A stretch of DNA of 56,513 nucleotides from NCBI GenBank assembly GCA_937135955.1, contig CAKZOB010000068.1, positions 1 through 56,513 on the forward strand, written 5' to 3'. This document shows, piece after piece, positions 15,352 through 20,742 of this stretch (position 1 is the first letter of the stretch; each line of letters starts with the position of its first letter). A program made the position numbers and the translations under genes. Below the pieces are notes generated by a model. It was given only the letters and a program-made list of their open reading frames with translations, was not told the origin of the DNA and searched no databases. This stretch comes from an uncultured Anaerolineales bacterium. Lineage in GTDB: Bacteria; Chloroflexota; Anaerolineae; Aggregatilineales; Aggregatilineaceae.

Positions 15352-17691
15352 TCACGAATTGCAGACGCTGTACGCAGCAATGGCCGCCTGACCCAGCGCC
15401 AAGCCGCCGTCATTGGGCGGCACCAACTGGTGTACCAACACCGTGAAGCCGTCCCGCTCCAGCCTTTGCCGCGCAGCGCGCAGCAGTGTGCTGTTCTGGA
15501 ACACGCCCCCGCTCAATGCCACTGTTCCAATGCCCGTCTCAGCCCGCGCCAGCGCGCACACCGCGCCGATCATCTGCGCCACGCCGTTATGAAAACGTGC
15601 CGAGAGCACAGGCACTGCCACCCCCGCCCGCAGATCGCGCAGCAAGGCCGCGAAGAGCGGCGCGGGGTCAATCTCGAACCCTTCCCCTTGCGCTTGCTGA
15701 ATCGCCAGAGGATAAGCAGCGCGTTCGTCGGGATCGGCTGCCACCTCCAGCCAGATCGCCGCCTGCGCCTCATACGTCACTTCCTGCAATACGCCGGTCA
15801 GCGCCGCCACCGCGTCGAACAGCCGCCCCATGCTGGAAGTGAGCGGCGCGTTGAGCCGTCGCTCCAGTTGCTGGCGCAGGATGGTCTTTTCCTGCGCCGA
15901 CGCGGCACGGACTGGCGGGAGGTCGTCGTCCCAGGGCAGACCAGCGCTCCACAGATGAGCCAGCGCCATGCGGTAGGGGCGCAGCGTCGCCGCATCGCCC
16001 CCTGGCAAAGACACGTAGCGCAGATGGGCAAAGCGCCGGTACTCCCCATAGCCGCCGATCAGAATCTCACCGCCCCAGATCGCGCCATCCGGCCCCAGCC
16101 CCGTCCCGTCGAAAATCACCCCGATGACCGGCTGATCCGGTGCTACCTTATGCTCCGCCAGGCAACTGGCCAGATGCGCATGATGATGCTGCACTGCCAG
16201 GCGACGTTCCGGTCGGCGCAAGGCATAGCGCGTCGCCAGATAGTCCGGATGCAGATCGTGCGCGATCACCTCCGGCTGCACACGGAAGAGCCGCTCCAGA
16301 TGCGCGATGCTGTGCTCATAGGAACGCAGCGCCTCGTAATTGCTCAGGTCGCCGATGTGCTGGCTCATGAACGCGTACCGGTCGCGCACCAGGCAGAAAG
16401 TGTTTTTCAGTTCAGCGCCCGTCGCCAACAACGACGGCGCGTCGAACGGCAGAGGGATCGGATAGGGTGCATATCCCCGCGACCGGCGCAGGGGCATGAT
16501 CCCATTCGCATCTGCCCGCACCACAGAATCATCGCAACGGATATGAATGTCCCGGTTGTGCAGCAGGAAGGCGTCGGCCAGCGCTCCCAACCGCTGTAGC
16601 GCGTCTTCGTTGTCGGTAGCGATCGGCTCCTCGCTGTAGTTACCGCTGGTCATCACCAGTGCGATCGGGAAGTCCGACGCGCGCTCCAGCAACAGATGGT
16701 GTAGCGGTGTATAGGGCAACATGACCCCCAGTTCACGCAGACCTGGTGCAACATCGGGCACAACTGGCCCGCCGGCTCGTAGGGGCAACAGCACAATCGG
16801 TCGCTCTGCCCCCTGTAGCACAGTCACCGCCTCCGCACTGACCTCACACACCGCCCGGACAGCGTCCAGGTCGGGCATCATCACTGCAAAAGGTTTGGCT
16901 GCCCGTCCCTTGCGCGCGCGGAGCGTCTGCACAGCTTGCGCGTTAGTCGCGTCGCACGCCAGATGAAAGCCGCCCACCCCTTTGATCGCCACAATGTATC
17001 CGGCCCGCAACAATGCTCGCGTCGCTGCGAGCGGGTCGGCAGGCAGGGCATCCCATCCCGCCGGTGTGCCCAGCGCCGGACTGGGCAACAATTCCAACTG
17101 CGGCCCACATACCGGACAGGCGTTGGGCTGCGCGTGAAAGCGGCGATCCAGCGGATCGTCATACTCTCGCTGGCACTGCGGGCACATGGTGAACGATGCC
17201 ATGGTCGTCTGAGGCCGGTCATAGGGGATACCCCGAATGATCGTGAAGCGCGGCCCGCAGTTGGTGCAGTTGGTAAAAGGATAGCGGTAACGCCGGTCAG
17301 CCGGGTCGAAGACCTCGGCCAGGCAGTCATCGCATGTTGCTACATCGGGCGAGATCGGCTGATAGGCTCCCTCCACCGCCTGGCTGTGCTGAATCTCGAA
17401 GCGCGTGTAGCCGTTGGCAGGGATCGCCTGCACAGTCATCGCCTCAATGCGCGACAACGGCGGCGCTTCGGCGCGGATCGCAGCCACGAAGGCATCCAAC
17501 GCCTCGCCTGTCCCCTCGACTTCGATCTCAACCCCTGCCGACGTGTTGCGCACCCAGCCACACAGACCATGGCGCAGCGCCAGCGTGTAGATAAAGGGAC
17601 GAAAGCCAACGCCCTGCACCACACCGCTGATATGAATGCGCCGGGCGGATACATCAGAAGTGCTCACGCTATTTCGCCGCGCCTCGCCCAT
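15352..17691 (-). CDS. hypF: Carbamoyltransferase HypF
   Basis: 779 residues. HypF uses carbamoyl phosphate and ATP to make the thiocarbamate on HypE, the source of the cyanide ligands. The domains are an N-terminal acylphosphatase (GVVQGVGFRPF), two zinc-finger motifs (CDDCLAEV with NCTNCGPR; MCPQCQREY with NACPVCGP), a YrdC-like nucleotide domain (IKGVGGFHLACDA), and a C-terminal Kae1-like domain (HHHAHLASCLAEH, VALSGGVFQN). ATG 17691 overlaps the end of hypB by 23 bases. GTG 17667, one base after the hypB stop, gives MSTSDVSARR and is a credible alternative start. All key motifs are intact. Confidence 0.95.
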   Translation of the reverse strand: MGEARRNSVSTSDVSARRIHISGVVQGVGFRPFIYTLALRHGLCGWVRNTSAGVEIEVEGTGEALDAFVAAIRAEAPPLSRIEAMTVQAIPANGYTRFEIQHSQAVEGAYQPISPDVATCDDCLAEVFDPADRRYRYPFTNCTNCGPRFTIIRGIPYDRPQTTMASFTMCPQCQREYDDPLDRRFHAQPNACPVCGPQLELLPSPALGTPAGWDALPADPLAATRALLRAGYIVAIKGVGGFHLACDATNAQAVQTLRARKGRAAKPFAVMMPDLDAVRAVCEVSAEAVTVLQGAERPIVLLPLRAGGPVVPDVAPGLRELGVMLPYTPLHHLLLERASDFPIALVMTSGNYSEEPIATDNEDALQRLGALADAFLLHNRDIHIRCDDSVVRADANGIMPLRRSRGYAPYPIPLPFDAPSLLATGAELKNTFCLVRDRYAFMSQHIGDLSNYEALRSYEHSIAHLERLFRVQPEVIAHDLHPDYLATRYALRRPERRLAVQHHHAHLASCLAEHKVAPDQPVIGVIFDGTGLGPDGAIWGGEILIGGYGEYRRFAHLRYVSLPGGDAATLRPYRMALAHLWSAGLPWDDDLPPVRAASAQEKTILRQQLERRLNAPLTSSMGRLFDAVAALTGVLQEVTYEAQAAIWLEVAADPDERAAYPLAIQQAQGEGFEIDPAPLFAALLRDLRAGVAVPVLSARFHNGVAQMIGAVCALARAETGIGTVALSGGVFQNSTLLRAARQRLERDGFTVLVHQLVPPNDGGLALGQAAIAAYSVCNS

Positions 17692-18334
17692 TGATCTGTG
17701 CGCGCAACCATGTCAGCCAGGCGTCGAATCCTTCGCCCGTGCGGCAGGAGATCGGCAAGAAAGTCACGCCGGGGTTGAGCGCCTCCACTCCGCGCCGGAA
17801 GTATTCCACGTCGAAGCCCATGTATTCCTGCAAGTCCATCTTGTTCAGCAGCAATACATCCGCCCCGCGGAACATCTGCGGATATTTGTAGGGTTTGTCA
17901 TCGCCCTCTGGCACGCTGGCAATGACCACGTTGAGATGCACGCCCAGCTTGAACGCCGCCGGGCAGATCAGGTTGCCCACGTTCTCGATGATCAGCAGAT
18001 CGAGCGCGTCCAGGTTCAGGGAAGGCAACGCCCGGTAGACCATGTTGGCGTCCAGATGACACTCGCCGCCCGTGTTGATCAGCGAGACAGGGATACCCAT
18101 CCCCGCCAGTTCGCGCAGATCGAGGTCTACGATATCTCCGTCCATCACGCCGATGCGCACCTCGTCCATCAGTGCGCGCACCGTGCGCACGATCACGCTC
18201 GTCTTGCCTCCTCCGGGCGAGGCCATGAAATTAACCGCCAACACCCCTGCCTGATTGAGCCGGCGGTGCACTTCCTCGGCCAGTTGATCGTTAGCATTCA
18301 GGATGTTCTCTACGACCGGAATCTTGTTGCTCAT
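17669..18334 (-). CDS. hypB: Hydrogenase nickel incorporation GTPase HypB
   Basis: 221 residues. HypB is the SIMIBI GTPase that drives nickel insertion together with HypA. The P-loop is SPGGGKTS, the switch/metal region ENVGNLICPA carries the conserved cysteine, and NKMDL is the guanine-specificity motif. There is no histidine-rich nickel-storage stretch and no CCxxC-like N-terminal nickel motif. The start is ATG 18334 with GAGGAA six bases upstream. It lies nine bases after hypA and overlaps the longer hypF start. Confidence 0.95.
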   Translation of the reverse strand: MSNKIPVVENILNANDQLAEEVHRRLNQAGVLAVNFMASPGGGKTSVIVRTVRALMDEVRIGVMDGDIVDLDLRELAGMGIPVSLINTGGECHLDANMVYRALPSLNLDALDLLIIENVGNLICPAAFKLGVHLNVVIASVPEGDDKPYKYPQMFRGADVLLLNKMDLQEYMGFDVEYFRRGVEALNPGVTFLPISCRTGEGFDAWLTWLRAQINGRGAAK

Positions 18335-18343
18335 ACGTTTTCC

Positions 18344-18721
18344 TCAAGGGGTTTGCCCAGGGCCGGGCTGCGGCTCGGCCAGATCAACCTCAATGCTGTC
18401 CAGGTAGAACTCTTCCCCGCCCACCACACTCACCGCGAAACTGCCGCAAGCTGGGCACACGTAATCATTGCGGCCCAGCGCGAACTCATGACCACACTGC
18501 CGGCAACGCAGTTTCGCAGGGACACGCACAAAGTTGAGCCGCGCCTCCTGCGCGATTGTCCCTGCGCTGATGATGTCCCAGTAGAACTGCACCGAGTCAT
18601 CAACAATGCTCGACAGCTCGCCGATCACCAGATTGATCTCGCGGATGCGCACCGCGCCCGCCTGCTGCGCGTGACGCAGGGCAATTTCCAGGATATTCTG
18701 CGTGACGCTCAGTTCATGCAC
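18344..18721 (-). CDS. hypA: Hydrogenase nickel chaperone HypA
   Basis: 125 residues from GTG 18721, giving MHELSVTQNI. This start keeps His2, the nickel ligand of HypA, and is nine bases from AAGGA; the GTG six bases further upstream is too close to that site. The zinc domain has CRQCGHEF and CPACGS. HypA delivers nickel to the hydrogenase precursor with HypB. It is the first gene of the hypABFCD operon. A TATGAT box at 18764-18759 on the minus strand may be its -10. The acidic, Pro-rich C-terminal tail is slightly longer than usual. Confidence 0.95.
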   Translation of the reverse strand: MHELSVTQNILEIALRHAQQAGAVRIREINLVIGELSSIVDDSVQFYWDIISAGTIAQEARLNFVRVPAKLRCRQCGHEFALGRNDYVCPACGSFAVSVVGGEEFYLDSIEVDLAEPQPGPGQTP

Positions 18722-18853
18722 TGGCACGCATCCTTTTTTCTAAACCAGCATCAAGTAAATCATAGCATGGACTGCCGGGGCTTCCAGGTGACAAAAGTGA
18801 GGTCGCTAAGGTGCTTTTGCGCGGAGTCTGGCGCATCGGCAGCGCCGCAAACC

Positions 18854-18994
18854 TCAGAACCCCTGGTAAATCCATTGCGGCGCGTTATCTGTGGTGACGA
18901 TAATCACCAGCACCAGGATCGCGCACAGCAGCAGCGCAAACAGATTCTCGCGGCTGAAGATGTGCCTCAGCAAACTGCGGAACCAGGCCATCAT
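18854..18994 (-). CDS. DltX-like acyl-transfer microprotein (46 residues)
   Basis: A short gene whose ATG overlaps the stop of the acyl-AMP ligase by one base (TGATG), with AGGGGA just upstream, so the two are translationally coupled. The layout is a short basic N-terminus (MMAWFRSLLRHIF), one membrane helix (about residues 18-34, LFALLLCAILVLVIIV), and an outside C-terminus ending DNAPQWIYQGF. DltX microproteins have this same layout and end in a F-x-Y-x-E-F motif whose tyrosine carries D-alanine between DltB and teichoic acid. Here W-I-Y-Q-G-F keeps the tyrosine and the last phenylalanine. Linkage to an AMP ligase, the DltA class, supports the match. Neither a DltB-like MBOAT nor a DltD-like gene is in the window. 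Confidence 0.7.
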   Translation of the reverse strand: MMAWFRSLLRHIFSRENLFALLLCAILVLVIIVTTDNAPQWIYQGF

Positions 18995-20742
18995 CAGTCC
19001 CCTTCCTGAATACCGAGCACCTGCTCCATGAACTTCTTGCGGTTGGCGGCGCGCGCGATCTTCCCGCTGGAAGTCTTGAGCAGCCACTTCGGCCCCACCA
19101 GGTGCACATAGCGCGCCGTCACGTCGGTCGTCTGCACCACGCGGGCGCGAATTTCACGGACGATGCGCCCGTGCTCCTGGGGGTCTTGCGTGTCTACCTC
19201 GCAGACAACTGCAATGTCTTCTGTGCCCAGGTCTTCATTGGGCACACCGAAAGCCACCGTGCGCCCCGGATGCACCCCCTCGATATTGTTGATCGCATTC
19301 TCGATATCCTGGGGATAGATATTCTTGCCGCCGACGATGATCAGGTCTTTCTGCCGCCCAGTGATGTATAACTCTCCATCGGCCAGATATCCCAGATCGC
19401 CCGTGAAATACCACCCATCTTCCAATGCCTTGGCCGTCGCATCGGGGCGACGATAGTAGCCGCTGAGCATACAGTTGCTGCGCAGGGCCACCTCCCCCAC
19501 ATGACGCTCAGGCAGGTCACGGCGGGCAGCATCTACGATGCGAACTTCGGTGTGTGGGATCGGTCGCCCACACGAGACCATCACCACCGTCGGGCCATCG
19601 CTTCCGTCGGACGGGCGCGCGATCCCCTGCTCCATCAACGCTCTGCGGTCAATCACATCCAGGCGCGGGGGGATGCCCAATGCGCTTTGGGTGACGGCAA
19701 AAGTGTTCTCCGCCATGGCATAGCACGTCTGCAAGGCGCGCCCGTCCAGGCCATAGGGCGCGTAGAACTCACCAAAGAGAACATAGCTGTCGTGCCGCAC
19801 CGGCTCAGAACAGTTGATCAATGCCCGCAGACTCGATAGATCAATCCCATCCAGCGCCACTTTGCGGACTCGCGTCGCCATGAAGTTGTAGGCGAAGTTC
19901 GGCAGCCAGCACAACGTACCCCGATAGTCACGAATCGCCCGCAGCAGCACCAACGGATCGCGCACCCAGTGGAAGGGCGAGATCAGCACCAGATGCACCC
20001 CCTGCACAATGGGCATGAGGAAACCAGCAATCAGCCCCATATCGTGATAAAGCGGCAGCCAGCTCACCACGACATCGTCCGGGCGCAGGTTGATCGCCGC
20101 ACTGTAAGCCGCGATCTGATTCAACACCGCACCGTGTGCCAGCATCACCCCTTTCTGCAAGCCGGTGCTGCCAGACGAATGCTGCAAGAAAGCCGTATCC
20201 GTTGGCTGCGATGGCGCGCGCCCCAGGTAATCACTCAGGTTCCCCTCCGGCTCCAATTCCTCAATGTTCAGAATTGCGGCCAGGGTAGAAATTCCTGCCA
20301 GTCTCTCGCGCAGAGCGGGCAGCATGTCCGCATAGGTGATGACTGCCCGCACCTCCGAGAGCGTCACCAGTTGTCGCACGCTCTGGTAATAATGTTCTGG
20401 GTCGAGCTTAGGGGTCAGGAAGGGCATGATCGAGGGGATCGCCCCCAGCAACATCGCCCCCCAGAAAGCGTACAGCACCTCGCCACCGTGCTGCAGCACC
20501 AGCACCACCAGATCGCCCCGCTGCACGCCAACCTTTTCCAGCGCCCGCGCATAGCGGGCCGCCTGTTCAAAAAAGGCGCGACAGCCAATCGTCTGCGTCT
20601 CGTCGGGCTGAATGAGCGTGAGAGCAGTACGATCGGGTACGGTCTCAACCAGATGACGCGCGCAGGCGATCAGGGTATCTGGAATATGATCCAGGCGCAC
20701 AGGCAGGGGAAACTCAAGAGGGGCAGTCGGGGTTATAGTCAT
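18994..20742 (-). CDS. Fatty-acyl-AMP ligase (FAAL-like AMP-forming synthetase)
   Basis: 582 residues of the ANL superfamily. The phosphate loop is HSSGSTGLQKGV (residues ~188-199), followed by WLPLYHDMGLI, the adenine motif CYAMAENTFAV, VSCGRPIPHTEVRIVD, YFTGDLGYL and the C-terminal catalytic lysine in TSSGKIARAAN (Lys561). The HDMGLI and VSCGRP motifs and the size are typical of fatty-acyl-AMP ligases, which activate fatty acids and pass them to a carrier protein rather than to CoA. No carrier domain is fused. It is coupled by a one-base overlap to the DltX-like microprotein. FAAL rather than acyl-CoA ligase is likely but not proven. Confidence 0.88.
   Translation of the reverse strand: MTITPTAPLEFPLPVRLDHIPDTLIACARHLVETVPDRTALTLIQPDETQTIGCRAFFEQAARYARALEKVGVQRGDLVVLVLQHGGEVLYAFWGAMLLGAIPSIMPFLTPKLDPEHYYQSVRQLVTLSEVRAVITYADMLPALRERLAGISTLAAILNIEELEPEGNLSDYLGRAPSQPTDTAFLQHSSGSTGLQKGVMLAHGAVLNQIAAYSAAINLRPDDVVVSWLPLYHDMGLIAGFLMPIVQGVHLVLISPFHWVRDPLVLLRAIRDYRGTLCWLPNFAYNFMATRVRKVALDGIDLSSLRALINCSEPVRHDSYVLFGEFYAPYGLDGRALQTCYAMAENTFAVTQSALGIPPRLDVIDRRALMEQGIARPSDGSDGPTVVMVSCGRPIPHTEVRIVDAARRDLPERHVGEVALRSNCMLSGYYRRPDATAKALEDGWYFTGDLGYLADGELYITGRQKDLIIVGGKNIYPQDIENAINNIEGVHPGRTVAFGVPNEDLGTEDIAVVCEVDTQDPQEHGRIVREIRARVVQTTDVTARYVHLVGPKWLLKTSSGKIARAANRKKFMEQVLGIQEGD

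Follow-up and report, generated by a model that had tools for sequence, protein, structure and literature searches.

A tyrosine-tailed microprotein beside a FAAL-type ligase in Anaerolineae: a candidate acyl shuttle of a Dlt-like MBOAT-SGNH system

The window analysed here is the whole of contig CAKZOB010000068.1 (56,513 nucleotides; assembly GCA_937135955.1, an uncultured Anaerolineales bacterium), which belongs, as contig C68, to a genome of 4.28 Mb. Our subject is a pair of overlapping genes in this window, one encoding an acyl-AMP ligase of the fatty-acyl-AMP ligase (FAAL) type and the other a single-helix microprotein that we regard as a probable acyl shuttle. The features of the locus are:

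18994-20742, minus strand: FAAL-type acyl-AMP ligase gene, 582 aa; proposed loader of the acyl group onto a carrier protein
18854-18994, minus strand: single-helix microprotein gene, 46 aa; proposed acyl shuttle
18857-18874, minus strand: codons of the WIYQGF hexapeptide at the C-terminal end, with the Tyr codon at 18866-18868
18994-18996, minus strand: junction TGATG with one shared base; ligase stop TGA at 18996-18994, microprotein ATG at 18994-18992

The microprotein, MMAWFRSLLRHIFSRENLFALLLCAILVLVIIVTTDNAPQWIYQGF (46 aa; stop codon 18856-18854, minus strand), is basic at its N-terminus, contains a single hydrophobic stretch and closes with the tail APQWIYQGF. Translation bears out the preliminary description of this DNA, which had reported 46 residues, one helix and a WIYQGF end, and its one-base overlap between ligase stop and microprotein ATG is what the TGATG on the minus strand shows. 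This exact overlap, which the description read as translational coupling, is not general: across the 11 relatives' loci in which a ligase gene lies directly ahead of the microprotein gene, the latter starts anywhere from 8 bases before the last base of the ligase stop codon to about 130 bases beyond it.

A tblastn search of the window and of 80 loci from relatives recovered a microprotein homologue in 34 of the 80, the window not counted. Conservation was counted over the final 36 codons in 89 copies that differ in nucleotide sequence, taken from all loci then available. Counting from the C-terminus, Tyr(-4) and Gln(-3) are each kept in 88/89 copies and Gly(-2) and Phe(-1) each in 87/89, and position -6 is Trp in 86, Phe in 2 and frame-shifted in 1. 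The full WIYQGF occurs in 84/89, with FIYQGF in 2, WIYQGY in 1 and WIYQNF in 1; the sole copy without the tyrosine, from L038, is frame-shifted. The terminal tyrosine and phenylalanine highlighted in the preliminary description are thus conserved in relatives. The tail codons vary synonymously (TAT 56 and TAC 32, CAG 54 and CAA 34, four Gly codons), the mean pN/pS is 0.38 (ratio of means, uncorrected; 3828 pairs), with pN smaller than pS in 98.9% of pairs, values that indicate purifying selection on the microprotein gene.

In PMC12148441, DltB is described as transferring D-alanine from DltC to a tyrosine of DltX, from where it moves to DltD and the polymer, whereas PatA acetylates a tyrosine in its own tail from acetyl-CoA, and PatB can take an acetylated tail peptide as donor; an FXYXXF shuttle motif is described there for DltX and PatA. 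Two of our loci, L141 and L145, carry FIYQGF, a natural Trp/Phe swap at the first hexapeptide position that ties the microprotein tail to this motif. Using the Listeria dltXABCD genes (L201) as Dlt reference, we found that the microprotein aligns with DltX, which ends in KFIYNEF, in register to the last residue, at 23% over 35 residues and a non-significant E value of 2.8. Pfam DltX (PF12459) was not among the matches of four microprotein homologues at E<=10, and across the whole genome it gave only a 12-bit match elsewhere (cut-off 25), a cut-off exceeded in 2 of 14 control genomes. Since the Pfam family does not match the microprotein, the label 'DltX-like' that it had been given stands for layout and tail and not for family membership. 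Microprotein queries against Pfam, NCBIfam, PADLOC and PDB returned no meaningful match.

The gene neighbourhoods in relatives place the microprotein with an MBOAT, a membrane-bound O-acyltransferase. In 22 of the 34 loci the microprotein gene abuts the start of a gene for an MBOAT homologous to that of the window's genome, in 11 it directly follows a ligase gene, and the frame-shifted L038 copy lies 0.2-0.3 kb before an MBOAT. In L042, about 6 kb hold in order a microprotein, an MBOAT, an SGNH protein, a lipoprotein, an acyl carrier protein (ACP) and a FAAL. In 26/80 loci an ACP gene ends 13-133 bp ahead of the FAAL match, by a pattern search that misses the ACP of L012/L133, and ACP-FAAL genes run divergently beside microprotein-MBOAT genes in G030, G035, G040 and G024. 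The carrier, MBOAT and SGNH partners, noted at the outset as missing from the window, thus share one cluster with microprotein and FAAL in relatives. The ligase-microprotein pair does recur, in 11 loci; outside the window's own family the usual neighbour is instead the MBOAT. In 18/18 genomes of that family (G000-G017) the ligase gene comes immediately ahead of the microprotein gene, so the family has a rearranged version of the cluster. No polymer-synthesis gene stood regularly beside the cluster in the loci with listed genes, a statement that comes from no search aimed at one.

Several variants of the neighbourhood were also seen. On a 212-kb plasmid of Leptolinea sp. HRD-7 (L200 7754-9353, AP024711.1) the microprotein gene lies directly ahead of the MBOAT gene, and both products are annotated as hypothetical proteins; the 17-kb stretch read there gave no convincing SGNH, ACP or FAAL match. 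A small lipoprotein gene precedes the microprotein in 22 of the 73 loci (duplicates counted) whose sequence reaches far enough upstream, among them L042, L044, L025, L011, L055 and L200 and none of the window's family. It encodes 120-150 aa in the five that were read, one of which has a weak DUF4440 match, and is possibly an extra component of the system. In L020 (3315-9427), a single microprotein-MBOAT pair stands among four SGNH paralogues on its flanks, an arrangement that would suit more than one acceptor or site.

The ligase matches Pfam AMP-binding at 198 bits, and its nearest solved relatives in a PDB sequence search are FAALs (3pbk, 240.9 bits; 3kxw, 240.5 bits). Its best NCBIfam matches are fatty-acid/acyl-AMP ligases; named FAAL models score strongly, yet all of the best 25 of 109 models fall below their own cut-offs (for example PRK09192, 378.8 bits against 600), no curated FAAL cut-off being reached among them. 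Against Listeria DltA it shows 22% identity and 50 bits. The alignment with 3pbk extends through the C-terminal half without large gaps; a specific insertion is characteristic of FAALs in general. The proposal that an enzyme of the fatty-acid-activating type takes the place of DltA agrees with these scores (about 240 bits for FAALs against 50 for DltA), by which the ligase is FAAL-like and not DltA-like.

The search for an MBOAT that had been suggested for this genome gave a single match, a 472-aa protein encoded beside an SGNH-type gene on another contig, outside the window. Its closest solved relatives are the DltB structures 6bug and 8jem (160 bits, PDB sequence search) and its sole NCBIfam match is TIGR04091 (DltB; 226 bits, below the cut-off of 375); against Listeria DltB the MBOAT shows 29% identity and 143 bits. 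For the L012 homologue, 55% identical to it, a structure model built with a 16-row alignment (predicted local distance difference test score, pLDDT, 87) superposes on DltB 6bug with Z 26.3 and a root-mean-square deviation (rmsd) of 4.2 over 387 residues, the next match being human MBOAT7 at Z 20.6. Both histidine motifs align with those of DltB, and H344 and H391 (numbering of the genome's own protein) are invariant in 18 sequences.

This MBOAT ends in FVRLWRW, with no FXYXXF tail. We tabulated MBOAT ends over the loci fetched by then (81 rows, some loci duplicating the same gene). A tyrosine tail occurs in 0/51 MBOATs of this clade with a visible end (56 rows of at least 290 bits, five cut by the locus end), whereas 21/21 rows at 140-227 bits end in [FP]-[ILV]-Y-x-x-F (FIYFQF, FVYQGF and others), the tail being fused to the enzyme; the other four rows are two archaeal MBOATs without a tail and two fragments. 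The tail of the microprotein and the tail-less MBOAT are thus complementary. In a tree of 51 of the 73 distinct MBOATs, a branch (97/88) sets apart 24 clade MBOATs, a few of them without an adjoining microprotein; these join two DltB sequences (98/88), away from 23 fused ones (93/83). The deep order is less certain because the fused proteins are longer, branches are long and composition differs.

The SGNH-type gene lies 3 bases behind the genome's own MBOAT gene and encodes 396 aa with a GDSS block and a C-terminal His block. Pfam GDSL matches it only below its cut-off, and a PDB sequence search returned nothing at E<=1. All 18 sequences compared keep Ser105 and His361. A model of the L012 homologue (58% identical; pLDDT 86.8) has an N-terminal helix at 14-38 and an SGNH domain that matches CgnD 8a2n (Z 15.3), TesA (14.7) and DltD 7dxm (14.2; rmsd 5.3 over 281 residues). 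Since DltD is tied with many SGNH enzymes in the VIA-align list, the fold does not single it out, and Foldseek ranks other SGNH proteins ahead of it. The proposed search for a DltD/SGNH protein led to an SGNH-type gene beside the MBOAT gene, with a product not recognisable as DltD by sequence. The genome holds two carrier proteins, one on C60 found by the general PF00550 model and one on C41 found by the profile of the relatives' operon ACPs. The latter (75 bits, DSFS attachment site) is the stand-alone ACP that had been looked for, and it lies outside the window.

Co-occurrence was assessed in 400 Chloroflexota genomes, drawn evenly and including the window's own, with cut-offs of E<=1e-5 for the microprotein, E<=1e-80 for the MBOAT clade and E<=1e-180 for the FAAL clade; the MBOAT threshold was chosen after fused-tail MBOATs were seen to score at most 227 bits. 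The microprotein was found in 34/400 genomes and the MBOAT clade in 34/400, and these are the identical 34 genomes. In 30 of them the microprotein and MBOAT genes share a strand and are no more than 100 bp apart (exceptions G000, G184, G388 and G411); the frames of the G184 microprotein and of the G216 MBOAT are each interrupted by one stop. The FAAL clade occurs in 32/400, namely in 31 of the 34 (not G095, G184 or G216) and in G264. All positives belong to the window's class, and because the sampled genomes are related the 34 co-occurrences are not independent events. Among the 41 nearest relatives, 35 have the microprotein; 25 of these have a clade MBOAT of at least 290 bits, 2 a contig-edge fragment beside an SGNH gene and 8 neither. 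In the 6 relatives that lack a microprotein, the clade MBOAT is likewise absent and SGNH matches do not exceed 21 bits.

We propose, as a quite probable reading, that the microprotein is the acyl shuttle within a Dlt-like MBOAT-SGNH transmembrane acylation system. The FAAL would adenylate a carboxylic acid, with a fatty acid the likeliest candidate, and load it onto the stand-alone ACP; the DltB-like MBOAT would then move the acyl group from the ACP through the membrane onto the tyrosine of WIYQGF, as the chemistry of DltX and PatA suggests; from the loaded tail the group would pass to the serine of the SGNH protein, itself anchored in the membrane, and this enzyme would esterify a hydroxyl group on an envelope component. 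Within the family of the window this cluster is split, with FAAL and microprotein together and MBOAT-SGNH and ACP elsewhere. A fatty acyl group is on balance the favoured cargo, because the ligase belongs to a FAAL-like family. Probably, then, these bacteria attach a fatty-acid-like group to a surface component by a route not described before. The original observation is confirmed and its interpretation is supported at the genomic level; what can be read from the sequences is the set of parts, their conservation, their linkage in relatives and the complementarity of microprotein and MBOAT tails.

Several observations weigh against this proposal. The genome's own MBOAT-SGNH genes and ACP lie on other contigs than the ligase-microprotein pair, C23, C41 and C68 being three separate contigs, so that linkage is seen in relatives and not in this genome; its ACP adjoins a solute-binding lipoprotein and not the ligase, and ACPs of its type stand beside fused-tail MBOATs in G001, G004, G005 and G015. 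The expectation that genomes with the pair also have an MBOAT of this clade was upheld in 10/18 of the window's family and not in the other 8, which have the ligase-microprotein pair and no clade MBOAT of at least 290 bits. PF03062 finds no MBOAT in four of these, G002, G013, G016 and G017 (completeness 73-96%); G005, G009, G014 and G015 hold seven MBOATs, six fused-tail and the seventh running off its contig. Several of the 8 are fragmented drafts, and G005, 99% complete in 70 contigs, makes a real loss of the clade MBOAT possible. G264 has the FAAL clade with neither microprotein nor clade MBOAT, and the L139, L140, L143 and L144 stretches carry clade MBOAT-SGNH pairs with no adjoining microprotein; the genomes of these four loci hold the microprotein elsewhere, and some genomes have a second MBOAT-SGNH pair. 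The SGNH profile scores only 7.8 bits against Listeria DltD. Moreover, the canonical Asp three residues before the His is absent from 18 SGNH sequences read by eye, an acidic or amide residue standing four, not three, before it, and the Gly that SGNH enzymes have five positions beyond the block II Asn is found in 0/18, also by eye; other residues occupy that place, which makes the comparison suggestive only.

Other explanations account for parts of this evidence. The ligase might feed the same shuttle with a short, hydroxy, aromatic or amino acid, a reading that departs from ours only in the acyl group and that we consider unlikely, if still deserving weight: a FAAL-like sequence does not fix the substrate, the cut-offs of named FAAL models are not reached, and DltB, the closest solved relative of the MBOAT, moves a small group, while the FAAL identity of the nearest solved ligases and the slight likeness to DltA point the other way. 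A divergent true Dlt system, in which the ligase had been recruited for D-alanine to D-alanylate a polymer, would explain the same types of part, the tail and the grouping of the MBOAT with DltB; it is very improbable given the FAAL-like ligase, the absence of a Pfam DltX match and the mere 18.6 bits that the operon ACP profile scores against Listeria DltC.

The gaps within the window's family lend themselves to the idea that there the microprotein now anchors or regulates the ligase and serves an MBOAT only in other families, as the FAAL directly precedes it in 18/18 family genomes and the clade MBOAT is missing in 8/18. This is improbable, the tail being conserved as strictly in the window's family as elsewhere and the other 10 genomes retaining MBOAT and SGNH genes (two of the MBOATs as contig-edge fragments). 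That the small open reading frame is a chance frame or is untranslated has next to no probability: small frames are common in the window, but purifying selection, 88/89 conserved tyrosines, co-occurrence with the clade MBOAT in 34/400 genomes and the annotated Leptolinea homologue already contradict it.

Compared with known systems, the proposed acyl shuttle system resembles Dlt in its separate one-helix microprotein of 46-48 residues ending in [F/W]-I-Y-x-x-F, its tail-less MBOAT, AMP ligase, carrier protein and membrane-anchored SGNH protein. It differs in the FAAL-like ligase, an operon ACP profile that barely matches DltC, a different gene order, a Trp nearly always where DltX has Phe, a microprotein outside Pfam DltX, an SGNH protein not recognisable as DltD by sequence, and its occurrence, as found here, in Anaerolineae. 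It would thus work like Dlt, yet falls outside the DltX family and DltA. With known FAALs it shares the ligase sequence, the nearest solved structures and a nearby ACP in 26/80 loci; the usual partners of FAALs are polyketide synthases and nonribosomal peptide synthetases, and here the ligase is linked to an MBOAT-SGNH set. With PatA/PatB and AlgI-type systems, as described in PMC12148441, it shares an MBOAT, an SGNH protein and a Tyr hexapeptide, and unlike them it has the hexapeptide on a separate protein and a donor that appears to be acyl-ACP. That article states that non-Dlt MBOAT/SGNH pathways do without microprotein and carrier protein and use acyl-CoA and a fused tail instead; a conserved system with a microprotein and an ACP and a fatty-acid-type ligase would break this D-alanylation-only rule. 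Full-text searches of open-licence PubMed Central (PMC) papers turned up none that joins a FAAL with an MBOAT, connects MBOAT-SGNH systems with Anaerolineae or Chloroflexi, or describes the combination seen here. If the proposal is right, bacteria can relay fatty acyl groups across the membrane via a tyrosine, in addition to acetyl and D-alanyl. It offers a starting point for work on how Anaerolineae modify their envelope, and the parts are small and defined enough for reconstitution.

Fused-tail MBOATs ending in FVYQGF or FVYGGF adjoin an ACP in L121, L123, L124 and L136, and in L070 (10001-13431) a FAAL gene, an ACP-like frame and the gene of an MBOAT with fused tail are consecutive. A fused tail and a carrier protein can apparently go together, contrary to the generalisation in PMC12148441. 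Two Woesearchaeota loci (L053 8000-11662, L057 5845-9496) begin with a different one-helix microprotein, ending in SPDLVYFPT; an MBOAT without tail comes next, then a gene that by eye resembles AcpS, a short frame resembling an ACP and lastly a relative of FAAL. They look like an archaeal counterpart of the split acyl-shuttle system. Proteins of Pfam DUF5989 are likewise one-helix microproteins (L053 17865-18029, L057 15563-15727, L192-L199), with a copy in the window's own genome at G000:C73:25441-25584. Read in both archaeal loci and in 6 of the 8 Chloroflexota loci (L195 and L198 left out), their ends are FIYALF (the two archaeal loci and L194), MIYTLF, FIYTIF (2) and FIYPLI (2), and they look like further tyrosine-shuttle microproteins; DUF5989 is not named in the open-licence PMC papers searched. 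We offer only tentatively, as a possibility short of favoured, a general split acyl-shuttle class fed by FAAL and ACP, in which an MBOAT would load a Tyr-tailed microprotein and an SGNH protein would lipidate a surface polymer, spanning Anaerolineae and Woesearchaeota (LVYFPT), with DUF5989 perhaps a third version.

Downstream of the microprotein gene, on the same strand, lie hypA, hypB and hypF (window 15352-18727, minus strand). A hydrogenase-maturation role suggested by these neighbours was set aside because outside the window's family the microprotein adjoins an MBOAT. A comparable hyp gene order follows the microprotein in L003, L006 and L007 (read by eye), and in the window's family the ligase-microprotein pair precedes a hydrogenase-maturation cluster.

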